Positions 29,079-40,115 of a stretch of 64,000 nucleotides of DNA are shown here, one piece after another. Origin of the DNA: Paraflavitalea pollutisoli (GTDB lineage Bacteria > Bacteroidota > Bacteroidia > Chitinophagales > Chitinophagaceae); assembly GCF_029360705.1 (NCBI RefSeq), contig NZ_JARKMX010000008.1:3278202-3342201 (forward strand), given 5' to 3'. Both the position numbers and the translations under genes were made by a program. How positions within the stretch are numbered: position 1 is the stretch's first letter; each line of letters begins with the position of its first letter. Under the pieces are notes generated by a model, which was not told the DNA's origin, did not search any database, and saw nothing but the letters and a program-made list of their open reading frames with translations.

Positions 29079-29259
29079 CCGATATCGTAGCATATCGTTT
29101 GAGATTCTTGGCACCAGATGCTGGGGATTTTTGCATAGTAAAATAGTACTCTAGAAGACCTGATTCGAGCATAGATGTGCTTAAAGGCTTGATTTAAATC
29201 AATTCAAATCCCGAATTTTATCAGATTTTTTCTACTTACAAAATAAATCTATTGGCCGC

Positions 29260-29358
29260 TTAGTACCATCAGGCAGTTATGTTGTTATAATAGAAAGGAT
29301 AAGGTTTAATGGTTAACGAAATTGACTAGCGACGCCCTGCGTTTTCACGCGGGGCTTT
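29260..29358 (+). ncRNA. Short terminator-ended element, copy C
   Basis: Near-identical to copy B: AGAAAGGATAAGG, then a six-codon ORF M-V-N-E-I-D-stop and a CCCTGCGT/ACGCGGGG hairpin with a shorter T-tract (GGGGCTTTTGCCC). It lies at the left edge of the AT-rich island in the otherwise gene-less 29079-29535. The next plus-strand gene begins at 29536. Confidence 0.55.
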
Positions 29359-29535
29359 TGCCCTTTGCCGAAGCCTTCTTCTATTTTTTATGTGCATTTG
29401 TCCTTAATTAGCCGTCGGCATAATATTTCGCATAGCGTATACGTTCAACGTTTGGCCGTTTATAGTGAACATACATTTGTCTAAAATAGCTTCCCGTTTA
29501 ATTACTCCACAGTTAATCAAGTTAAAAAAGTATTT

Positions 29536-30402
29536 ATGAAATTGGTCTCGGCAACTTTAATCTTGCTATCAATTTGTTTTGTGGCTTCATCACAAGATTT
29601 ACCGCTTAACTCCGCCGGTTTTGTATACATCGGCGATTCAATCAAAACAAATGGAAAGTCGTTGCAAGAAGTCAAAAGCATTATGTCAAAATGGGCGCAT
29701 TCACTACTTGATCAAGCCCATATAAGCAGGGTATATAATCTAAATAATTCTAAACAGACAGAAAGTGTGTCCATTAATCTCCCTCTAGGATCGATTCTGA
29801 CTCATGAGCAAGGCAACAATAAATTTGTCTCAAACGGAACTTTAGTTTATACCAAAACTAAAAAAGTAGCATTTACACCTGTTGTGACATTTGGCGCTGT
29901 AAAATTTTCACTGTCATACTACTTAACCAGGTCGCTCATAGTTTATGATTTTGTAAACCTAGAATACAGCCATGACATGCAGCACTATGGCAAATTCGAA
30001 GAGGAAAAAGGACCAAAAGATGCCTATAATAACTCATTACTTTTAAAAATGAGTAAGAAAGAATGGTCATCAGTAAAAATTGAATACTATAACTACCTTA
30101 AAATTTTAGCGAGAAACCTAAACGACTATTTGCAAGTTTCGTTTTCTAATACTAACGAAGTTGCTACAAACGCAGGCATAAATTATGACTGTTACAAAAA
30201 AATTATTATTGGCATGAGTTATGAGGAGGTGATCAAAATTCTTGGAGAAGAGGGAAAAGAGACCACTAACGGATCGACTAAATTAGAAGGGAAAACTGTC
30301 AGTCAGCAAGCTTTTATTTGGAAGGCTCTAGATCATTCCAAAAGTATAAGCATAATATTCATTGATGGTAAAGTCTCGGCAAAATCACAATCCAATCTTT
30401 AA
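29536..30402 (+). CDS. Secreted DUF4468-like protein with C-terminal BLIP/SmpA-like domain
   Basis: 288 residues with a signal peptide (cleavage near ASSQD). The N-terminal part, LPLNSAGFVYIGDSIKTNGK with a later SLSYYLTRSLIVYDFVNLEYSH, resembles the DUF4468 (TBP-like fold) domain of Bacteroidota secreted proteins. The C-terminal 65 residues (YKKIIIGMSYEEVIKILGEEG, then AFIWKALDHS) resemble the small beta-lactamase-inhibitor/SmpA fold. Composition is clearly more AT-rich than the genes to its left. Role unknown. Confidence 0.65.
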   Translation: MKLVSATLILLSICFVASSQDLPLNSAGFVYIGDSIKTNGKSLQEVKSIMSKWAHSLLDQAHISRVYNLNNSKQTESVSINLPLGSILTHEQGNNKFVSNGTLVYTKTKKVAFTPVVTFGAVKFSLSYYLTRSLIVYDFVNLEYSHDMQHYGKFEEEKGPKDAYNNSLLLKMSKKEWSSVKIEYYNYLKILARNLNDYLQVSFSNTNEVATNAGINYDCYKKIIIGMSYEEVIKILGEEGKETTNGSTKLEGKTVSQQAFIWKALDHSKSISIIFIDGKVSAKSQSNL

Positions 30403-30884
30403 AGTCACTCATGCAGCTTAACTTCAGCTGTAATAATCGATCTCACCAAATAGAATAACGACAGCTAGTTGATAAAACACATTCCCCAACATACATGAAG
30501 CAATTCCCTCCTGCATACATGTAGTCACTAGCCTGCAAAAAGATTTGCGAATTATCTAAATCACTTGTCGAACCAGGCAAATATATTCACTCACTAGTAT
30601 ATGCTCTGGTGGTAGCATTTGAATTAAACTTCATAAAGTTGAAATGTCAGGGATGGCTACAGCTACTCTAAGTAAGTTTCACGGCCATAAAATCCACTTA
30701 AAACTTTGACCATCAGAAAATTAAAAAACCAAAATACCTTTTTCCAGATTCGCCTAAATTTGCTAATGTTGCCCTAAACCGTCCAAATTCCATAAAGTGA
30801 AGCTAAAATACTTTGAGATCTATTAGGATTTCGCCTCCTTATTGGAATTTATGGCCATTCAATTGAATAATACCAAGATAATTA
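30403..30884. other. AT-rich gap before the methyltransferase operon
   Basis: No coding frame or strong hairpin recognised in 480 bp. It probably contains the promoter of the methyltransferase-helicase-nuclease operon, but no clear TTTG/TAnnTTTG pair could be assigned. Confidence 0.4.
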
Positions 30885-33626
30885 ATGAATGCAGTTGAGA
30901 TAGAAGAAGCTATTTCGCTATTAGCCGAACAACCGTTCGACCCACAGGAATTTCCTTATTCCTTTCTAGAGGCGTTCGGTAATAAAGCTACCACAATAAA
31001 ACGTCTTAGAACAGGGAATAATAATAAATCAGATGTAGATGGAGGAGTATTACAACAAAATAATATTCATATAGCGGTTTGTGAAGAGGGAGAAACAGAA
31101 AACACGTTAACGAAATTACGAGAAAGCACTGCAACAAGTAAAGGCAAAGTAAAGTATATACTTACTACTGATGGTAAAGAATTTCAGGCCGAAGAACTAA
31201 ACAGTGGCGAAACGATAGTTTGTACATATACATCCTTTCACGATCATTTCGGCTTTTTTCTACCGCTCGCAGGAATCAGCACTGTTAAACAAATCCGGGA
31301 AAACGCCTTTGATATTAAAGCGACAAGCCGCCTAAATAAGCTATATATCGAACTGCTACGCCACAATCCGGAATGGGCAACGGCAGAACGCCGCCATGAT
31401 ATGAATCACTTTTTAGCGCGTCTAATTTTTTGTTTCTTTGCGGAGGATACCGATATATTTGTAGAGGCCCGGCTTTTCACTGATACCGTACAAAAAATGA
31501 GCGCACCTGATGCTTCAGATACTCATGAAGTTATAAGTGAAATATTTCGGTCAATGGATATTAAACATGAGGAGCGAGCCGAGAAGAAGGTAAAGAATTG
31601 GGCAAGAAAATTCCAGTATGTCAATGGGGAACTATTTTCAGGATCGACCGAAACACCAAAATTTACAAAAATTGCCAGATCTTACCTTCTTCATGTAGGC
31701 AATCTTGATTGGAAAAAAATCAATCCCGATATATTTGGTTCGATGATTCAGGCTGTAGCGGACGAAGGCGAACGCAGTTTATTAGGCATGCACTATACAT
31801 CTGTACCAAATATTCTGAAAGTTCTAAATCCGCTGTTTCTTGATGATTTGAGGGCACAGTTATATGAAGCCGGTGACAATGCCCGCAAATTATTAAACCT
31901 GCGGAAACGGATTTCACGAATACGTGTTTTTGATCCAGCATGTGGATCAGGTAACTTCCTCGTAATCGCCTACAAACAGTTGCGAGAAATTGAATTTGAA
32001 ATTAACAAACGCCGCGGGGAAAATAACAAACCAACAGAAATTCCATTGACTAACTTTAGAGGGATAGAATTGCGTGATTTCTCAGCGGAAATTGCACGAT
32101 TGGCGCTTATTATTGCCGAGTATCAATGTGATACACTTTATCGCGGGCAGAAATTAGCACTTGCCGAGTTTTTACCATTGGATGCTGAAAACTGGATTAT
32201 TTGCGAAAATGCGCTTCGAATAGATTGGATTTCACTGATGGATGTGAGAGGAACCGGTGTAAAGCTAAATGGCCATGACCTATTCTCAACGCCCACAGAT
32301 CAATCCCAAGTTGATTTCGTAAATGGAGGTGGGCAAATTTATATCTGCGGCAATCCGCCGTATTTAGGCCGAAAATATCAGTCAGACGAGCAAAAAAATG
32401 ATCTTAAAAACGTTTTCTCCGGGAGAACAAAAGATACACTCTCGTTGGACTATGTATCAGGTTGGTTCATTAAAGCAGCTGATTTTATACTACAAGCAGA
32501 ATCAAAAGCAGCTTTTGTTACTACTAATTCCATTTGCCAAGGAATTCAGGTTTCAGCCATGTGGCCCGTCATTTTCAAGCAAGGTGTATTCATCTCATTT
32601 GCATACCAATCATTTAAGTGGTCGAACCTTGCTAGTCACAATGCAGGCGTCACCGTTTCTATTATAGGACTATCAAAAAAAGAGCCTTTCAGAAGAATAT
32701 TTACGGTCGATAATGCTAATGAAACCATAGTTAAAGAGGTTGATAATATTAATGCCTACCTGGTTGCCGCATCCAACGTCTTTGTATCCCAAAAAAGTAA
32801 AGCGCCCGACGATCGGACGCCTATGCAATTTGGCAATCATCCATACTATGCCAATGAACTAATGCTAAAGCCAGACGACGCTCGATCAATAATAAGACAG
32901 AATTCAACGGCACGAAAATTCGTCCGACCCCTATACGGATCTGCAGAACTTATTTCCGGCACACCAAGAATGTGTCTATGGATAAAAGAAGACACTCTGC
33001 AAGAAGCGGAAAGTATATCTGAAATTTCAGCAAGAATTAATATCGTAGCTGCTACGAGAAAACAAGTTAAAAACGATGTTCAGGCACAAAAGCTTGTATC
33101 GACCCCTTATAGATTCCGTGATCAATATGAAGCAATAAATCATTTAATTGTCGTACCAATAGTAAGTTCTGAAAGTAGACAGTATCTTCCAGTCGGCGTG
33201 GTAGACGCCGATGCTGTAGTGCACAACAAAGCTTTCGCTTTATATGATGCTCCCTTATGGAATATGTCAATAATTGCCTCTAGCATGCATATTGCTTGGA
33301 TAGGGGCAGTATGTGGTAGATTAGAGATGCGGTTTTCATATTCAAATACACTCGGCTGGAATACATTTCCTCTACCAACTTTAACTTCAAATAATAAAAA
33401 AGATTTAACCTCTGCCGCTGAAAACATCCTACTTGCTCGAGAAAAGCATTTTCCTGCCAATATCGCTGACTTATATGACCCTGAAAAAATGCCTAAAGAT
33501 TTGCGTATCGCACATGATTGGAATGATGAAGTTTTGGAACGTATCTACATAGGCCGGCGTTTTAAGAATGACACAGAACGCCTTCAGAAATTATTTGACC
33601 TTTATAGTTCGATGACCACAAAATGA
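30885..33626 (+). CDS. Class I DNA methyltransferase, large (type IIG-like)
   Basis: A 913-residue N6-adenine-type DNA methyltransferase. SAM motif I is FDPACGSGNF (349-358) and the catalytic motif IV is NPPY (490-493). An N-terminal helical region with DMNHFLARLIFCFFAEDTDIF-like sequence (172-192) is shared with MmeI/YeeA/DrmMI-type enzymes, and the C-terminal third should hold target recognition (SNTLGWNTFPLP). The first 130 residues (SDVDGGVLQQNNIHIAVCEEG region) show no D-ExK nuclease site that I can see. It is first in a three-gene operon, 10 bp before the helicase, and would supply self-protection. Confidence 0.9.
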   Translation: MNAVEIEEAISLLAEQPFDPQEFPYSFLEAFGNKATTIKRLRTGNNNKSDVDGGVLQQNNIHIAVCEEGETENTLTKLRESTATSKGKVKYILTTDGKEFQAEELNSGETIVCTYTSFHDHFGFFLPLAGISTVKQIRENAFDIKATSRLNKLYIELLRHNPEWATAERRHDMNHFLARLIFCFFAEDTDIFVEARLFTDTVQKMSAPDASDTHEVISEIFRSMDIKHEERAEKKVKNWARKFQYVNGELFSGSTETPKFTKIARSYLLHVGNLDWKKINPDIFGSMIQAVADEGERSLLGMHYTSVPNILKVLNPLFLDDLRAQLYEAGDNARKLLNLRKRISRIRVFDPACGSGNFLVIAYKQLREIEFEINKRRGENNKPTEIPLTNFRGIELRDFSAEIARLALIIAEYQCDTLYRGQKLALAEFLPLDAENWIICENALRIDWISLMDVRGTGVKLNGHDLFSTPTDQSQVDFVNGGGQIYICGNPPYLGRKYQSDEQKNDLKNVFSGRTKDTLSLDYVSGWFIKAADFILQAESKAAFVTTNSICQGIQVSAMWPVIFKQGVFISFAYQSFKWSNLASHNAGVTVSIIGLSKKEPFRRIFTVDNANETIVKEVDNINAYLVAASNVFVSQKSKAPDDRTPMQFGNHPYYANELMLKPDDARSIIRQNSTARKFVRPLYGSAELISGTPRMCLWIKEDTLQEAESISEISARINIVAATRKQVKNDVQAQKLVSTPYRFRDQYEAINHLIVVPIVSSESRQYLPVGVVDADAVVHNKAFALYDAPLWNMSIIASSMHIAWIGAVCGRLEMRFSYSNTLGWNTFPLPTLTSNNKKDLTSAAENILLAREKHFPANIADLYDPEKMPKDLRIAHDWNDEVLERIYIGRRFKNDTERLQKLFDLYSSMTTK

Positions 33627-33636
33627 TTTTTTCCAC

Positions 33637-35688
33637 ATGGATAATAAAAAGTTCTTCCCATCAATAACTGTCAATTATAAAAGCACAGGAAGTTCAACTC
33701 AGTCTAATGAGCTTGGAATGCGGCAGATGCAGGAACGTGTGTATAATAAACGTGGAGAACAATATTTGTTGATTAAGTCCCCCCCAGCTTCTGGAAAAAG
33801 CCGTGCTTTAATGTTTATTGCTTTGGACAAATTAAACAATCAAGGCATTAAACAAGCGATTATCACCGTACCTGAGAAATCCATTGGCTCTAGTTTTCAT
33901 AATGAACCACTTACAAATTTCGGCTTCTACTACGACTGGCAGGTAGAGCCAAGATGGAACCTTTGTAATTCACCTGGAGAGGAAGGAAGCAAGGTAAAGT
34001 CCGTGAAGGCATTTCTTGAAAGCACTGATAAGGTACTCGTTTGTACGCATTCAACTTTTCGATTTGCAGTAGAACGGTTTGGCGTAGAAATTTTCGATGA
34101 GCGTCTGATTGCCATTGATGAATTCCATCACGTGAGCGTCGATGAGGGCAACGTACTTGGTTCTCAATTAAAGCAGCTGGTAACACGCGATAAGGTTCAT
34201 ATTGTGGCAATGACCGGTTCATATTTTCGCGGGGATGCCAACCCAGTTCTAATGCCAGAGGACGAAGCTAAATTCGATACAGTAACTTATACATATTACG
34301 AACAGCTTAACGGATATGAGTACCTAAAAACCCTTAATATTGGTTACTTTTTTTATGGAAATGCATACGTGGATGAGATTTTGAGCATTTTAAATCCCAA
34401 CGAAAAAACTATCATACACATACCAAACGTTAACTCCAGGGAAAGCATGGGGGATAAAATCAAAGAGGTTGAGCATATCATGCATGAGTTGGGCGAATGG
34501 TTGGGAGCAGACACAAATACTGGCTTTCATTTGATAAAAACAGAGGGTGGTAAAGTTTTAAAAGTCGCAGACCTCGTAGATGACGAGCCGACAAAACGCA
34601 ATAAGGTTTCTGCTTCATTAAAACTACCAGAAGCTAAAAGCAACCGTGATCATGTGGACATTATTATTGCGCTTGGTATGGCAAAGGAAGGCTTTGATTG
34701 GATTTGGTGTGAGCATGCCCTAACCGTTGGCTATCGCTCGAGTTTAACAGAAATTGTACAAATTATTGGCCGAACTACTCGCGATGCTCCTAATAAAACT
34801 CATGCCCGTTTTTCAAACTTGATTGCTGAGCTTGATGCCACAGAAGGGGCTGTTACAGATGCCGTGAATGATACACTCAAGGCCATTTCTGCAAGTTTAT
34901 TGATGGAACAGGTACTGGCTCCGAGGTTTAATTTCACACCTAAGCGACCTCAAAGCGGTCCTGTTGACGGATTTGACTACGGAGAAGAAGGCTATAATCC
35001 CAACAAAGAAAACATTGGATTTAATGAACAGACTGGTCAGTTTCAAATTGAAATAAAGGGGCTTTCCATGCCCAAGAGTGAAGATGCACAACGTATTTGC
35101 AGAGAAGATCTCAATGAAGTAATTGCAGCGTTTGCCCAAGATAAGCAAACGATTGAACGTGGTCTTTTTGATAAAGAGATCATCCCACAAGAACTAACGC
35201 AAATCCGGTTTGGAAAAATCATCAAAGACCGATATCCTGAATTGACTGAAGATGATATCGAGGCAGTGCGACAACATGCAATAGCCGCACTAAATCTTAC
35301 ACAAAAAGCCAAAGAGACCCTCAATAACGATGAGGAACTCAGCAGCCGGGGAAACACAGCACTCATTGACGGCGTACGTAAATTTGCAATGGATGTCCGA
35401 GATCTTGATGTAGATTGGATTGATAGTATTAATCCATTTAACGAAGCTTACGCCATTTTGTCCAAGGCAATGAATGAGCATAGCCTAAAAGCGATGGCTG
35501 AGGTAATATCCGCCAAGAAACCTAACATTTCGTTAGAAGAAGCACGGGAACTGGCGAAACGGGCAATAAAATTCAGAAAGGAAAGAGGCAGATTACCAGA
35601 AATTAATTCTGCTGATCCATGGGAACAACGAATGGCGCAAGGTATTGCTTATCTTGCAAGGCTAAAAGCAGAAGAAAGAAATGGCTAA
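33637..35688 (+). CDS. DEAD/DEAH-like helicase of an RM-type operon
   Basis: A 683-residue superfamily 2 helicase or translocase: Walker A SPPASGKSR (48-56, Lys54), Walker B IAIDEFHH with DEFH box (161-164), motif III-like AMTGSYFRG and motif VI QIIGRTTRD (375-383). No nuclease domain is apparent, unlike HsdR or type III Res. The last 39 residues contain a GRLPE module (651-655, then WEQRM 662-666) also present at the N-terminus of the next protein. Its stop lies inside the start of the nuclease gene (8-bp overlap), implying coupled translation and perhaps a complex. Confidence 0.9.
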   Translation: MDNKKFFPSITVNYKSTGSSTQSNELGMRQMQERVYNKRGEQYLLIKSPPASGKSRALMFIALDKLNNQGIKQAIITVPEKSIGSSFHNEPLTNFGFYYDWQVEPRWNLCNSPGEEGSKVKSVKAFLESTDKVLVCTHSTFRFAVERFGVEIFDERLIAIDEFHHVSVDEGNVLGSQLKQLVTRDKVHIVAMTGSYFRGDANPVLMPEDEAKFDTVTYTYYEQLNGYEYLKTLNIGYFFYGNAYVDEILSILNPNEKTIIHIPNVNSRESMGDKIKEVEHIMHELGEWLGADTNTGFHLIKTEGGKVLKVADLVDDEPTKRNKVSASLKLPEAKSNRDHVDIIIALGMAKEGFDWIWCEHALTVGYRSSLTEIVQIIGRTTRDAPNKTHARFSNLIAELDATEGAVTDAVNDTLKAISASLLMEQVLAPRFNFTPKRPQSGPVDGFDYGEEGYNPNKENIGFNEQTGQFQIEIKGLSMPKSEDAQRICREDLNEVIAAFAQDKQTIERGLFDKEIIPQELTQIRFGKIIKDRYPELTEDDIEAVRQHAIAALNLTQKAKETLNNDEELSSRGNTALIDGVRKFAMDVRDLDVDWIDSINPFNEAYAILSKAMNEHSLKAMAEVISAKKPNISLEEARELAKRAIKFRKERGRLPEINSADPWEQRMAQGIAYLARLKAEERNG

Positions 35689-36892
35689 GAAGAAGAAACT
35701 TACAGAAGAAGACAATGAGCTTTTGGCAGAACTTGGCATTGAAATAGAGGCCAAGAAAGCGGGTGCTTATACTGCACGCGAAGAGCGGATTATAGCCGGG
35801 TTTGAAGAAATTCAAAAATTCGTGGAAGAGCAAGGCCGTTTACCCGAACACGGAGAAGACAAAGATATATTTGAAAGGATGTACGCCGTTAGGCTTGACC
35901 AAATCCGCAAACAGAATGAATGCAAGACTCTTCTTAAAGCAATGGATTTTCAAAACCTTTTAGACATCGACAATATTAAACCGTTTAACATTCCGGATGA
36001 CTTGAAAGACGATGAATTGTTAGCACAACTTGGTCTCGACGAAGACGAGGACAATTCTATAACCAACCTTAAGCACGTCAAATCCCGCGCAGAAAGAAAA
36101 GCGGCTGAGGAAATAGCCAACCGGACTCGTTGTGAAGATTTTGAGCAATTCAAACCCCTATTTGAGGCGGTAAAAAAAGATATTGACACAGGTCAAAGAG
36201 TAACTGTTCGTTTTAGAAAAGACGCAGGCTTTACCAAAACAACTTTGAAAAATGGGCAATTCATCATCGTCGGCGGCCTTCTATCCTACATTTCAGAAGT
36301 AGGTGAATCTTTTAAAGCCCCAAATGGCGAAGACGATGCTAGATTAAGAGTTATCTACGCCAACGGCACTGAAAGCAATATTCTGCTAAGGTCGCTCATC
36401 AGAGGGATGTACAAGGACGATACAAGTAGATTTGTCACTGAAAATAACAATGGCCCGCTTTTCTCTGGTGAGTCTGACGAAAACGACATAGATGCAGGAA
36501 CGATCTACGTACTTCGAAGCCATTCAGACCACCCACTTGTTAAAGAAAACAGGAACATTGTCCATAAAATAGGTGTGACTGGAGGCGATGTAAAAAAAAG
36601 GCTGGCAAATGCTAAATTTGATCCAACTTTTCTTATGGCTGATGTAGAAATCATCGCAACTTACCGGTTAGCAAACATCAATCGAATAAAGCTTGAAAAT
36701 GTTATTCACAAATTTCTAGGCGCAACAAAACTAGAGGTTGAGGTTAAAGACCGTTTCGGAAAGCGAGTTAAATCCAAGGAATGGTTTTTGGTCCCATTAT
36801 TTATTATAGATCAAATGGTTGAAAAAATTAAAGATGGAACAGTAGGCGATTATTACTATGACCATAAAACTGCTGAGTTAAAACGGTACTAG
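35681..36892 (+). CDS. GIY-YIG (T5orf172-type) nuclease of an RM-type operon
   Basis: 403 residues. The C-terminal domain is a GIY-YIG nuclease: IYVLRS (275-280), HKIGVT (295-300), the Arg of KRLAN (306-310) and the metal-binding Glu339 in LENVIHKF. The N-terminal part has a GRLPE...FERM module (52-67) like the helicase C-terminus and a middle domain of unknown fold. By position it is the DNA-cutting subunit that would act on unmethylated DNA recognised or pumped by the helicase. It ends 16 bp from the convergent GIY-YIG gene. Confidence 0.85.
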   Translation: MAKKKKLTEEDNELLAELGIEIEAKKAGAYTAREERIIAGFEEIQKFVEEQGRLPEHGEDKDIFERMYAVRLDQIRKQNECKTLLKAMDFQNLLDIDNIKPFNIPDDLKDDELLAQLGLDEDEDNSITNLKHVKSRAERKAAEEIANRTRCEDFEQFKPLFEAVKKDIDTGQRVTVRFRKDAGFTKTTLKNGQFIIVGGLLSYISEVGESFKAPNGEDDARLRVIYANGTESNILLRSLIRGMYKDDTSRFVTENNNGPLFSGESDENDIDAGTIYVLRSHSDHPLVKENRNIVHKIGVTGGDVKKRLANAKFDPTFLMADVEIIATYRLANINRIKLENVIHKFLGATKLEVEVKDRFGKRVKSKEWFLVPLFIIDQMVEKIKDGTVGDYYYDHKTAELKRY

Positions 36893-36908
36893 TGTACAAA
36901 TAACCTAT

Positions 36909-37409
36909 TCAGTCAGCCAAGTTAGCAAATGGTCTTTTGTCAAATTGCCTGACAAAAGCCTTTATTAAATCTTGTTCTACTTTTCTGGGCTCCAAATCAG
37001 ATAATGTTTTCCAACATACTACCAGTTCCCGAGCGCCTTCAATTTGCCATACCAGGCGGCCTCCCCAATGGCCAACGTTTCTTCCTTGACCAAATTTAAA
37101 ATATTGATTTAATCTGGAATGCAGCGTAGCTTTCCCAGTAGAACTGCCTGCTTTGCCTATATAAAGAACCTTGGCACCTTCAACCCATTTCTCGTGCAGG
37201 AAAGGCAGTGCTACATTGGGATCCTTCCCTTTAAAGAATCCACCTGTTCCTTTCGGCAAAAAACTCATCTTATTTCCCCTTCCAACTATAAGGTATACAC
37301 CCTTTTTACGGGAAATGCAACTACTATCAAAAAATAATTCTTGATAGGTTTTGAAGCCTGTGAAACCTGCTGCTTCTAACGCTATCAGGTCATCAAAATC
37401 ATTCACCAT
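36909..37409 (-). CDS. Small GIY-YIG family protein
   Basis: 166 residues forming a single GIY-YIG domain with the full residue set: GVYLIV (37-42), LYIGKA (82-87), Arg99 in LHSRLNQY, Glu145 in VEQDLIKAF and the C-terminal RPFANL. It is distinct from the nuclease at 35681, with hardly any similarity outside the motifs. It is last of a minus-strand set of three genes, 19 bp after the DUF4268 gene. It could be an endonuclease of the same defence island. Confidence 0.8.
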   Translation of the reverse strand: MVNDFDDLIALEAAGFTGFKTYQELFFDSSCISRKKGVYLIVGRGNKMSFLPKGTGGFFKGKDPNVALPFLHEKWVEGAKVLYIGKAGSSTGKATLHSRLNQYFKFGQGRNVGHWGGRLVWQIEGARELVVCWKTLSDLEPRKVEQDLIKAFVRQFDKRPFANLAD

Positions 37410-37428
37410 TAAACATTCATTTTATTAG

Positions 37429-38589
37429 TTATTGCTCCGGCTCCAAAACCTCTAGTCCCTCATCAGCAATATTGCGTAGGGCTGTTTTCAAGTCCCCTAT
37501 AAAAGGCCTAATAGCTTTTTCTAGCCTGTTGATGTGCTCAACAAGAAAAGAAATTATGGCTGGCCACTCAACTTCATTATAATAATTCTGCGCCGGTGCA
37601 TAGAAGGCCACTGAGGACCTAATTATACCTTCACTACGCTCCCAGGAGAGGTTATCACCAAACTCCTTGTCGATCGCTTCTTTGTACCTATATAAGGCAT
37701 CAAATAAAACCTTATTCTCCTCCTGTGATGCTCGCCCAAAGTTCACTTTAACGTATGATTTATCACTACTAATGACAACCTGGTAGGTTACATGTGTCAC
37801 ACCCACTCCAGCTAAAAGCGCATTATCCTTCGTGGGATTAGAATTCTGGTATAGTGGTGATTTAGTTTTTATCGCCTTCAAAAATTCACTCCAAAACCTA
37901 AGCCTTATTTTACTTCTTGTTTTATTAGACTCATCGGTTGAAACTTCCTCCTGCACCTTGTTGTTCATCGAAATAATGTATTCCTGCGCATCTTTTATTG
38001 GAATAATCTGATCGAAGGTGAGAAAATACTGTCCATTCAATTCATACGGAGTAGTTTTGAAACACTGCAAATGAATGTTAAAATTCATCAACCACAGCGC
38101 AGTGGAAGTAACTTCCTTTCTAAAATTCGCTGCCACCAAAATAATTCGCTGAGACATTCTTTGATTCAAAACCAATTCAGAGTATTCCTTTTCATCGAAA
38201 AATTCTTCCAATATATCTGTTGCAGTTTTACCTTCAGCGTTGCTATCCAGATACTTTTGAAAAATATCTCGAATATTTTCTTTGGTCAAAGTACTTCCAT
38301 AGCTAGCGTACTTTAATGCCTGCCAGGTAACATCTCGTCCCGAATCATCCAGTTTATTTTCTATGACGACCAAATTCCCTGCCTTATCTAAAGCTAGTAA
38401 ATCCGGACGCTCATACGTATCCTGAAATTCGTTAAACTCTTTCTGAATAATTAGCAGCTTCTCGCCAAACACTTCCGGATGACTAACTATCCATTCCTGA
38501 AGATGAGCACGTTCCGAAAAACCTGATTGAGAGAAAGTTTTCCTTAATAAGGGAAGAATTGTATTATTTACCTTATCAACTACATACAT
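37429..38589 (-). CDS. DUF4268 protein with PD-(D/E)xK-like nuclease domain
   Basis: 386 residues. The N-terminal domain resembles the NucS/endonuclease-like core: Asp63 in ERPDLLALDK, a strand, then Glu77-Asn78-Lys79 in VVIENKLDD, and Gln90 in VTWQALKYAS. The C-terminal part (about 230-370, RLRFWSEFLKAIK) is the DUF4268 domain found beside restriction and defence genes. The ENK arrangement fits a functional metal site. It lies 19 bp before the small GIY-YIG gene and 55 bp after the 429-residue gene, all on the minus strand. Confidence 0.8.
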   Translation of the reverse strand: MYVVDKVNNTILPLLRKTFSQSGFSERAHLQEWIVSHPEVFGEKLLIIQKEFNEFQDTYERPDLLALDKAGNLVVIENKLDDSGRDVTWQALKYASYGSTLTKENIRDIFQKYLDSNAEGKTATDILEEFFDEKEYSELVLNQRMSQRIILVAANFRKEVTSTALWLMNFNIHLQCFKTTPYELNGQYFLTFDQIIPIKDAQEYIISMNNKVQEEVSTDESNKTRSKIRLRFWSEFLKAIKTKSPLYQNSNPTKDNALLAGVGVTHVTYQVVISSDKSYVKVNFGRASQEENKVLFDALYRYKEAIDKEFGDNLSWERSEGIIRSSVAFYAPAQNYYNEVEWPAIISFLVEHINRLEKAIRPFIGDLKTALRNIADEGLEVLEPEQ

Positions 38590-38644
38590 TGTTTAATCCT
38601 ATTAATTTACCAGAAATTGAATAATTGGCTACAGATCTTCTTTA

Positions 38645-39934
38645 TCAATTGGACATACGAAGAAATTCCCTTCCATCCTTTCCTATTATTCTTAATCCTT
38701 CACCAATTGATCGAAGCAACAAATTCCCCAGCTCGTTCTTACTATCAAACTCTTCCGCTTCTTTGCCCGTTACAGTGTAAATAGCCCCAAATCCAGGACA
38801 AATATTTAATGCTTGCATTGCTGTTCGGTAAAACTTATCCTGGAGTTTTCTTTCATCCTCGGCCCCAACAATAATAACACCTTCTTCTTTTAGCCAATCG
38901 AAATATTCTCGAACAGTCTCTTTTTTCTGTTGATATATTTCATGTGAATTTTCCGTCCAGAACGAAACATACTTCTTAGGATCAGGAACATCCTCGAACC
39001 ACACTAAATTGCTTGATCGAAAAGCAACATGGAAATTTGCACTAACTTCCCAATCTTCCGAAAGATGGTCAACTTTAGGACTTGCGGCATAAAAGGCTTT
39101 GGCTTGAGTTTGCGTATCTCCAAAAAAGAGTGACAAATCGAGCCACCATTCGTTTTCTTTTACCCCATAGATTAATCCTATCTGCCTAATCTCGGGGTAT
39201 GGAGTTTCAATGTAAAACCCCCAACCATAGTGGTATTTTACAGAGTCCTCATTAATTACAATTGATTTAAGCAGATTCTGTATTCTGCGATAAATGAGTT
39301 GCTGATTCCCCTTACATAAGTGAAAAGCGTCGTAAGGATTTAGAAAAGGAAAACGGTGATCAATAAAGGCAAGAAAATCCTCAATCATCATCTTCTCATA
39401 TCCAGCAACAGAAGGAAGTTTAAGTAAATGACTTAACTGCCTAACAATCTCCTTCCATTCGAGTATTATCGGATTTTGGTAGACCTTGGTTTCTGAAGAA
39501 AGCCCCTCTCTGGAAGGCTCAACCTGACCAAACCAGACGTTAGCTGAGTTGGGTTTATTTTCAATGATGAATGTTAATTGATCGCCAAAAGTAATAAGGC
39601 CATCATACCGGGCATACCGGTCGCTGACCGCTAAACCACTAACAGTTGTCTTTATAGGAAGATCTGTAATCAAAACCGAGGCGAGCCAGTCGGATTCAAT
39701 AACTGGATTAGATTTTTGCGTTTCAATTTGCCAACCATGCTCTACTAATTCACAAAGTGCGAAAGATTTCTCTTCCTTCGAAAGATCAAGGGTCAACTTA
39801 CTTTTACAATAGTCAACAAAGATAGAAAAAGCATGAAAAGAATGTTTCAGTACAACAAGGTGCGCCCTGGTCAATTGATCCTCGTGGTATCCTTCTTTTG
39901 ATTGATAGGGATTGAAATAATTCAAACGTTCCAT
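38645..39934 (-). CDS. PD-(D/E)xK-like defence-island protein of unknown family
   Basis: 429 residues without signal or membrane helix. A nuclease-like motif is visible: Asp111 in ARYDGLITFGD followed after 13 residues by Glu125-Asn126-Lys127 in FIIENKPN, the same D-x13-ENK spacing as in the neighbouring DUF4268 protein. The rest (for example HRFPFLNPYDAFHLCKGNQ) has no recognised family. First gene of the minus-strand trio. A nuclease or a substrate-binding relative is inferred from the motif. Confidence 0.65.
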   Translation of the reverse strand: MERLNYFNPYQSKEGYHEDQLTRAHLVVLKHSFHAFSIFVDYCKSKLTLDLSKEEKSFALCELVEHGWQIETQKSNPVIESDWLASVLITDLPIKTTVSGLAVSDRYARYDGLITFGDQLTFIIENKPNSANVWFGQVEPSREGLSSETKVYQNPIILEWKEIVRQLSHLLKLPSVAGYEKMMIEDFLAFIDHRFPFLNPYDAFHLCKGNQQLIYRRIQNLLKSIVINEDSVKYHYGWGFYIETPYPEIRQIGLIYGVKENEWWLDLSLFFGDTQTQAKAFYAASPKVDHLSEDWEVSANFHVAFRSSNLVWFEDVPDPKKYVSFWTENSHEIYQQKKETVREYFDWLKEEGVIIVGAEDERKLQDKFYRTAMQALNICPGFGAIYTVTGKEAEEFDSKNELGNLLLRSIGEGLRIIGKDGREFLRMSN

Positions 39935-40115
39935 ACGGCCTAGAGGTTTAAATCCAATTTTGGTTACAAGATTCTAATAGAAGTGGAAGATATTGTATTT
40001 TCAATTACGCGGAAATAATGGGCGAATGACTTAGATCAACCTTTTGACATTTACGTATTACTACGTATAGTCATCAATTGAAGATATGGTACAAGTGAAC
40101 CCAATAATAGATTAC

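Follow-up and report, generated by a model that had tools for sequence, protein, structure and literature searches.

An intact DnmA-YeeB-YeeC-type operon of Paraflavitalea pollutisoli, likely a restriction–modification system with a separate GIY-YIG nuclease

A 64,000-nucleotide stretch of the Paraflavitalea pollutisoli genome (hereafter, the window) carries an operon of three genes, encoding a DNA methyltransferase, a helicase and a GIY-YIG nuclease. The operon almost certainly belongs to the DnmA-YeeB-YeeC kind, the Bacillus subtilis proteins having been compared by their published description: an MmeI-homologous methyltransferase without a nuclease motif is followed directly downstream by the helicase and, second downstream, by a T5orf172/GIY-YIG protein. 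The trio is already known in print as DnmA(YeeA)-YeeB-YeeC, and the window copy is an intact further example. It is likely that the operon works as an ATP-driven Type I/ISP-like restriction–modification (RM) system with a separate GIY-YIG nuclease. The cluster probably marks the DNA of its host cell and cuts foreign DNA that does not carry the mark. The features of the locus are listed in Table 1.

Table 1. Genes of the operon and its neighbours in the window.
Feature	Position	Strand	Evidence
MmeI-type gamma-class adenine-N6 DNA methyltransferase (DnmA/YeeA homolog, 913 aa)	30885..33626	+	Pfam, PADLOC, phmmer, triad columns
SF2 DExH helicase/translocase (YeeB homolog, 683 aa)	33637..35688	+	Pfam, plasmid homologs, invariant motifs
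T5orf172/MUG113 GIY-YIG nuclease (YeeC homolog, 403 aa)	35681..36892	+	Pfam, invariant residues, structure model
Small GIY-YIG-like protein of 166 aa, transcribed towards the trio; neighbour, outside the system	36909..37409	-	Pfam GIY_YIG_2, sub-threshold
DUF4268 protein, weak NucS similarity, PADLOC candidate PDC-S11; neighbour, outside the system	37429..38589	-	Pfam, PADLOC

All three trio frames start with ATG and are uninterrupted. The methyltransferase and helicase genes are separated by 10 bp, and the helicase and GIY-YIG genes overlap by 8 bp. The GC-content is 0.405 in the trio and 0.392 over positions 29200-40000, against 0.516 in the remainder of the window. An earlier note on this DNA, made from the sequence alone, had described three genes packed in this way in an AT-rich island, and the coordinates and GC values agree with it. 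A Bacteroidota-type promoter pattern matched five times in the window (1.45 expected), with no match immediately upstream of the trio. The island ends yielded short degenerate repeat pairs only, with no clear att-like repeat. No clean empty site was found in two genomes of the same genus (G777 and G779), because the genes on either side have their best matches there on separate contigs.

The methyltransferase contains all five MmeI domains (MmeI_N, _hel, _Mtase with 374 bits, _TRD and _C), matches MmeI (5hr4) with 430.8 bits in phmmer and is scored by PADLOC as REase_MTase_IIG with 919 bits. The NPPY motif occupies residues 490-493. The earlier note had called this motif properly and had overlooked the homology to MmeI (Type IIL) without a nuclease site. 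The N-terminal domain of the window protein matches MmeI_N and lacks the D...ExK triad. In aligned columns, the MmeI PD-ExK triad (D...E.K) is present in 0/96 trio methyltransferases, three loci being counted twice, versus 33/36 enzymes without the partners. A pattern search in whole frames found the triad in 38 of 40 partner-less methyltransferases, the other two lacking an N-terminus. Hence, judging by sequence, the N-terminal domain of the trio enzymes is predicted no longer to cut, its catalytic triad being absent; since the triad is confined in this way to partner-less enzymes, cutting appears to have passed to YeeC. A quickly built tree (34 + 24 rows, N-terminal domain left out) places the trio and partner-less methyltransferases on opposite sides of one branch (SH-aLRT 100).

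The three genes were found to travel together. Among the 80 closest helicase loci, the GIY-YIG gene is present in all 80 and the methyltransferase gene in 78, the remaining two loci lying at contig ends. Gene order and strand are kept in 78/80 genome loci and in 9/9 plasmid loci, the latter fetched via helicase matches; this is the co-occurrence count that the earlier note had asked for, and the trio is conserved as a unit. Conversely, 58 MmeI-type methyltransferase loci drawn from three genome samples comprise 18 with both partners, 40 with neither and none with only one. The B. subtilis control genome was positive for the MmeI_Mtase family. In the close clade around the window copy (73 trios), the protein distances correlate in Mantel comparisons, with r 0.73 for helicase and nuclease, 0.48 for methyltransferase and helicase and 0.37 for methyltransferase and nuclease. 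Within this clade, identity to the window proteins is 55-68% for full-length methyltransferases and about 65-86% for helicases; the values for distant copies (Vibrio, Niallia, Rhodococcus, etc.) are 36-40% and 46-50%. Chance adjacency is ruled out by the co-occurrence, the whole unit recurring in other genomes and plasmids. The first gene is labelled Type IIG/MmeI by both PADLOC and Pfam, as an ordinary Type IIG/IIL (MmeI-like) enzyme with two unrelated neighbours would be; however, the triad missing from the window enzyme and the strict co-occurrence make this reading highly improbable. Clusters of the DnmA-YeeB-YeeC type are widespread, conjugative plasmids included.

The helicase matches Pfam DEAD and ResIII, with Helicase_C under the cut-off and no nuclease domain, as the earlier note had remarked. 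Its motifs are Walker A (G53-K54), D161-E162 and motif VI (Q375/R379/R382). Homologs on plasmids are up to 72% identical, and one of them, at 65.1%, is annotated as YeeB. The structure model (pLDDT 66.9) gave low-TM matches to SF2 motors generally, including HsdR and the Type ISP enzyme LlaBIII. Weak matches to PbeA (17.9 bits) and Cas3 (13.1 bits) were also seen. The third protein matches T5orf172 (44.5 bits) and MUG113 (42 bits), with a predicted nuclease domain at residues ~271-385. The helicase motif residues, K54 included, are invariant in 89/89 aligned helicases, and G273, Y276, K296, G298, R307 and E339 in 87/87 aligned GIY-YIG proteins, broken or odd-length copies having been removed beforehand, which biases both counts toward invariance. 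The residues singled out previously are therefore correct, NPPY standing at the position given above, Lys54 in Walker A and Glu339 in the GIY-YIG domain, and the domain matches agree with the proposed three-component modification-type system whose nuclease is a separate GIY-YIG subunit. Structure comparison was weakly informative overall. The YeeC model (pLDDT 74.8) had no convincing relative and no GIY-YIG enzyme among its best 50 rows (best E 0.002, TM 0.12), and its central beta-rich region bears a weak likeness to EF-P domain I (5wxk, TM by target 0.66, E 0.016).

The DISARM set consists of drmA/drmB/drmC and a methyltransferase, and the BREX core of brxC/pglZ with PglX. A PADLOC scan of the seven proteins encoded at 29536-39934 revealed neither drmA/B/C nor the partner genes of Zorya, and of BREX there is only a weak PglX similarity, so the absence of these gene sets claimed by the earlier note holds. 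Its statement that the trio matches no known system does not, while its guess at a catalogued but uncharacterised cluster was a good one, given the described B. subtilis DnmA(YeeA)-YeeB-YeeC cluster (PMC7261158, PMC9973331). According to the available portions of these papers, the clusters of B. subtilis and Vibrio crassostreae share with the window copy the three families in identical order, an MmeI homolog without a nuclease motif, a C-terminal T5orf172 domain in the third protein and a GC minimum at the locus (PMC9973331, PMC7261158). The window copy differs in belonging to a close clade apart from the Vibrio, Niallia and Rhodococcus copies.

The conclusion published for B. subtilis, as far as the available text goes, is that an RM system has decayed and left an orphan methyltransferase with an epigenetic role: methylation regulates genes, and the helicase and nuclease are relics (PMC9973331). 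Two results in the same portions speak against the RM reading: the cluster does not restrict plasmid transformation (PMC7261158) and its deletions cause no change with phages Nf, phi29 and SBS-phiJ (PMC9973331). For the window operon this reading seems unlikely: all three genes are intact, the active-site residues are invariant in the filtered alignments, and deletions of the V. crassostreae dnmA and yeeB homologs reportedly raise sensitivity to some phages (cited in PMC9973331). The cluster literature, in its available portions, also describes B. subtilis YeeB and YeeC as lacking C-terminal stretches that V. crassostreae has (PMC9973331 / PMC7261158); it yielded no report of nuclease or translocase activity for YeeB or YeeC, and no paper in the portions of the open-licence literature covered was recognised as demonstrating cleavage by the cluster. 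The B. subtilis cluster is the best-studied member and may be decayed. The window copy is a clean candidate for testing cutting, since it is complete and keeps every predicted catalytic residue.

Defence of a BREX- or DISARM-like effect, in which phage replication is blocked without cutting of unmodified sites or the GIY-YIG protein has another substrate, is judged equally improbable. It would fit the lack of avoidance of the DnmA motif in phage genomes, reported in the available part of PMC9973331, the weak similarity of the methyltransferase to DrmMI (100.5 bits) and PglX (28 bits, far under the NCBIfam cut-offs) and the EF-P-like region of YeeC, but the DISARM and BREX partners are absent among the seven scanned proteins and the GIY-YIG catalytic residues do not vary.

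In the preferred RM reading, the MmeI-like enzyme would, as its family suggests, read an asymmetric site via its TRD and methylate one adenine. At an unmethylated site, it would recruit or activate the helicase, which would move along DNA powered by ATP. The cut would be made by the GIY-YIG protein, whose active site is intact and whose gene adjoins the helicase in every locus examined, probably on the meeting of two translocating complexes, in the manner of Type I and Type ISP enzymes. With only one strand methylated, replication would produce, for each asymmetric site, one copy that carries no methylation at all, a problem that the two-complex requirement would solve. In effect, such a system would be a Type ISP/Type I enzyme divided into separate proteins, with its nuclease exchanged for another. 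Motor, gamma-methyltransferase and TRD are common to the trio and these enzymes; whereas a Type ISP enzyme unites all of these and a nuclease in one chain, the trio consists of three proteins, GIY-YIG replaces the PD-ExK/QxK nuclease and a separate S subunit is absent. No HsdM/HsdS/HsdR subunit set was detected among the seven proteins of 29536-39934 (Pfam, PADLOC). With the MmeI family (Type IIL/IIG), the window trio shares the five domains of the methyltransferase; it differs in lacking the PD-ExK triad and gaining helicase and GIY-YIG partners. CMoRE (PD-T4-3), a GIY-YIG Type IV enzyme, likewise uses this nuclease in phage defence, but is described in the available text as one gene that cuts modified-cytosine DNA, without methyltransferase or helicase (PMC12923530).

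The all-or-none swap between a fused PD-ExK nuclease and the helicase + GIY-YIG pair is a sharp, testable link, relating a simple MmeI-type enzyme to an ATP-dependent system. More tentatively, and with somewhat less than even confidence, the trio may represent a separate RM architecture, a ‘split Type ISP’, in which a single event separated the MmeI-type methyltransferase from its nuclease and cutting is done by an inseparable helicase and GIY-YIG pair. Exchangeable anti-phage or toxin-antitoxin genes, from a pool common to Type I hsd operons, would be carried as cargo in a slot where the specificity gene meets the motor pair. Other genes occupy the slot between the methyltransferase and helicase genes in 37/78 loci, and some of these accessory genes occur inside both hsd operons and relatives of the trio. 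RhuM-kind slot genes have Type I hsd genes alongside in five of nine places examined and none in four; for the AlbA_2 kind, the counts are one and two of three. This argument is drawn entirely from relatives, the window copy itself carrying no gene in the slot.

The genes beyond the trio were considered as further components and rejected. The product of 36909-37409 scores 17.2 bits for GIY_YIG_2, under the Pfam cut-off of 22.4, and relatives occur in 26 plasmid records. It is counted as a neighbour because it is absent from the 80 genome trio loci (tblastn, E 1e-8; loci with no more than 7 kb of flank) and lies ~4 kb past a trio in one Rhodococcus plasmid. The 429-aa protein at 38645-39934 has no relatives in the 295 other sampled genomes of the phylum (E 1e-5) and no match on plasmids. 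The product of 37429-38589 matches DUF4268 (94 bits, Pfam) and PDC-S11 (492 bits, PADLOC), and is present in one of the 80 genome trio loci (L045). In keeping with a role in defence, PDC-S11 adjoins the window copy, and CBASS and McrBC adjoin one plasmid copy of the trio.

Open reading frame analysis of the window bears out the three genes proposed in the earlier note, with a 10-bp gap, an 8-bp overlap and an AT-rich setting (GC-content 0.39 versus 0.52 in the surroundings). The methyltransferase contains all five MmeI domains according to Pfam, with MmeI (5hr4, 430.8 bits) as its top PDB relative, and the whole protein has one match in the host genome (8.76 Mb, 16 contigs). The helicase was correctly read as an SF2 enzyme without a nuclease domain: it belongs to the DExH type, and Pfam finds no nuclease in it. 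Its AlphaFold model (pLDDT 66.9) resembles SF2 motors generally, including EcoR124I HsdR and Type ISP LlaBIII, at low TM. The third protein carries a C-terminal T5orf172/GIY-YIG domain (Pfam), as expected of the predicted GIY-YIG nuclease. Its model (pLDDT 74.8) features helical and beta-rich regions N-terminal to this domain, the latter weakly similar to EF-P domain I; in a structure search with the model, all matches stayed short of E 0.001 and the 50 listed included no GIY-YIG enzyme. Among named homologs, the nearest are mostly from Bacteroidota (Pontibacter, Phaeodactylibacter, Mesonia).

The trio is real, well conserved and of an already described kind. Scanning the genome collection with a helicase profile gave at least 558 relatives, of which the best 80 were kept, so that these loci represent the closest relatives and not a random sample. 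A GIY-YIG gene lies beside the helicase in all 80 (truncated by the contig end in L011) and the methyltransferase is present in 78; in the other two, L065 and L084, the contig starts 0.4 and 1.1 kb ahead of the helicase match. All three genes are co-stranded in the 78 complete loci, where the helicase and nuclease genes overlap or almost abut, by estimate, and the methyltransferase-helicase gap is <150 bp in 41, 150–800 bp in 11 and at least 800 bp in 26. Among plasmids, tblastn matches to the nuclease lie in 224 records, to the methyltransferase in 422 and to the helicase in 264, 154 of which cover at least 80% of the query at one place; some records hold only a partial helicase. The trio stands in order in 9/9 plasmid loci retrieved via helicase matches and in L180, a locus retrieved for a different gene. 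The co-occurrence count suggested earlier shows the trio kept together in 78 of the 80 closest helicase loci and on plasmids. Among phage records, the helicase search gave only three weak or partial matches.

Helicase residues G53, K54, D161, E162, Q375, R379 and R382 are identical in 89/89 sequences, and nuclease residues G273, Y276, K296, G298, R307 and E339 in 87/87, in sets that exclude interrupted or odd-length frames and hence under-count decayed copies (genome-locus frames retained: 79/80 helicases, 77/80 nucleases, 70/78 methyltransferases). NPP[YFW] occurs in 77/80 methyltransferases; its absence from L002 (5233-7998, NPQF instead), L062 and L064 may reflect changed chemistry or inactivity. 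Distance correlation among the trio proteins is highest for helicase versus nuclease, a pattern that fits a fixed motor-nuclease pair with a looser methyltransferase.

The same association was assessed from the methyltransferase. Three genome samples supplied the MmeI_Mtase matches: the window's phylum (296 genomes), the class to which G298 belongs (229; G298 is the Vreelandella genome of L083) and that of G296 (250; the Fictibacillus genome of L052). From these, 58 loci were retrieved (32 + 15 + 11). The phylum sample excludes matches below ~268 bits, the window itself and G270:C65:14653, which lies inside a retrieved region; the G298-class sample excludes fragments in G376, G508 and G473. 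Helicase and nuclease are both present in 18 loci, both absent from 40 and never found singly, absence being less certain in six of the 40 with <4 kb of downstream sequence. Three of the 18 (L154, L159 and L178) belong to the two genomes on which the class samples were centred, picked for carrying the trio; the split is 15 : 40 without them. In L157 (G418:C4:44000-57000), which has matches to both helicase and nuclease, the methyltransferase match falls in a frame of 145 aa that seems interrupted.

The nuclease domain of MmeI comprises residues 1-155, and efficient cleavage requires two sites (PMC4833311). When the N-terminal domains of both groups are aligned together, the D...E.K columns are occupied in 33/36 partner-less enzymes and 0/96 trio enzymes (L154, L170 and L178 duplicating L083, L057 and L052). 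The three exceptions have G in the D column (two) or gaps (one); the motif of L176, judged by eye, is offset by one position, and that of L177 probably likewise. The alignment omitted four partner-less loci: a whole-frame pattern search found the motif in L143 and L147, while L151 and L152 are without an N-terminus, giving 38/40 partner-less enzymes by this count. Seven of the 96 trio proteins have a loose-pattern string within the first 130 residues, never at the aligned position. A quick tree built on columns outside the N-terminal domain places 34 trio methyltransferases and 24 partner-less ones on opposite sides of a single branch (SH-aLRT 100). A single loss or gain is enough to account for the exchange; its direction is not given by the tree because the root is a midpoint. 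DnmA of B. subtilis likewise lacks the motif and has YeeB/YeeC adjacent (Morgan et al. 2009, as cited in PMC9973331 and PMC7261158).

The comparisons establish the gene set, the missing nuclease triad in cis, the intact nuclease and motor residues in trans and the co-inheritance. The methyltransferase would modify one asymmetric site, ATP would drive translocation, YeeC would cut where complexes collide and the system would serve phage defence. Type ISP enzymes behave as half Type I enzymes requiring two head-to-head sites, and MmeI-type one-strand methylation creates a self-protection problem (PMC3874165). The analogy with Type ISP is attractive because a motor needing two convergent complexes would spare freshly replicated host DNA. 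DnmA produces m6A without affecting plasmid transformation, and a Type I-like system was previously proposed for its cluster (PMC7261158). Its recognition site is GACGAG, and yeeB- and yeeC-like families are the most common in 368 DnmA-homolog neighbourhoods, at +1 and +2; three phages were unaffected by the cluster, viewed by the authors as a relic, and V. crassostreae homologs are cited there as altering sensitivity to some phages (PMC9973331). PMC12923530 and PMC12602166 deal with other systems. What gives the trio its value is that this copy is clean and complete, together with the sharp all-or-none nuclease exchange, which makes the restriction hypothesis directly testable.

Neighbours of the trio and example genes of the methyltransferase-helicase slot
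Feature	Position	Strand	Remarks
288-aa protein	29536-30402	+	weak C-terminal DUF3862/BLIP-like match; upstream of trio, within AT-rich island
Small GIY-YIG-like gene	36909-37409	-	second GIY-YIG-like gene; convergent with trio, end 16 bp from it
DUF4268 protein	37429-38589	-	weak NucS similarity; PADLOC candidate PDC-S11, 492 bits
429-aa protein	38645-39934	-	no match at E 0.1 to Pfam, PADLOC or PHROG
Slot example	L086:5971-6981
Slot example	L072:5338-6810
Slot example	L080:5308-6941

Relatives of the small GIY-YIG-like gene occur in 26 plasmid records, most of them actinobacterial, as well as in 3/295 other sampled genomes of the phylum; the 429-aa protein has neither a plasmid match nor a relative among these 295. 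The PDC-S11 match suggests that the DUF4268 gene may be a second defence gene in the island. CBASS and McrBC adjoin one plasmid copy of the trio.

The space between the methyltransferase and helicase genes, which holds no gene in the window, reaches at least 150 bp in 37/78 genome loci (L011-L090). A mechanical call gave 50 ORFs there, part of them on the opposite strand. Pfam, run on 20 of them, identified two RhuM, three AlbA_2 ATPases, one DUF1016_N, one DUF3800, one AbiEii and one DUF6088 (both in L080), two weak PLD/NgoFVII-like matches and one T5orf172 under the cut-off; eight had no match at E 0.01. PADLOC on ten of these 20 assigned DUF1016 to PDC-S02 and a RhuM protein to PDC-S05. At E 1e-40, 45 plasmid records contain RhuM homologs, of which 12 were listed; five of nine places (eight neighbourhoods viewed, plus plasmid record H224 from its listing) lie within or next to Type I hsd genes and four elsewhere. 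Three AlbA_2 matches were viewed of the 12 listed: one lies in an hsd operon, one in another defence cluster and one in neither. One plasmid trio copy carries RelE/ParE and addiction-module genes in the slot, and in other plasmid records the methyltransferase match is overlapped or directly flanked by VapC or HigA genes.
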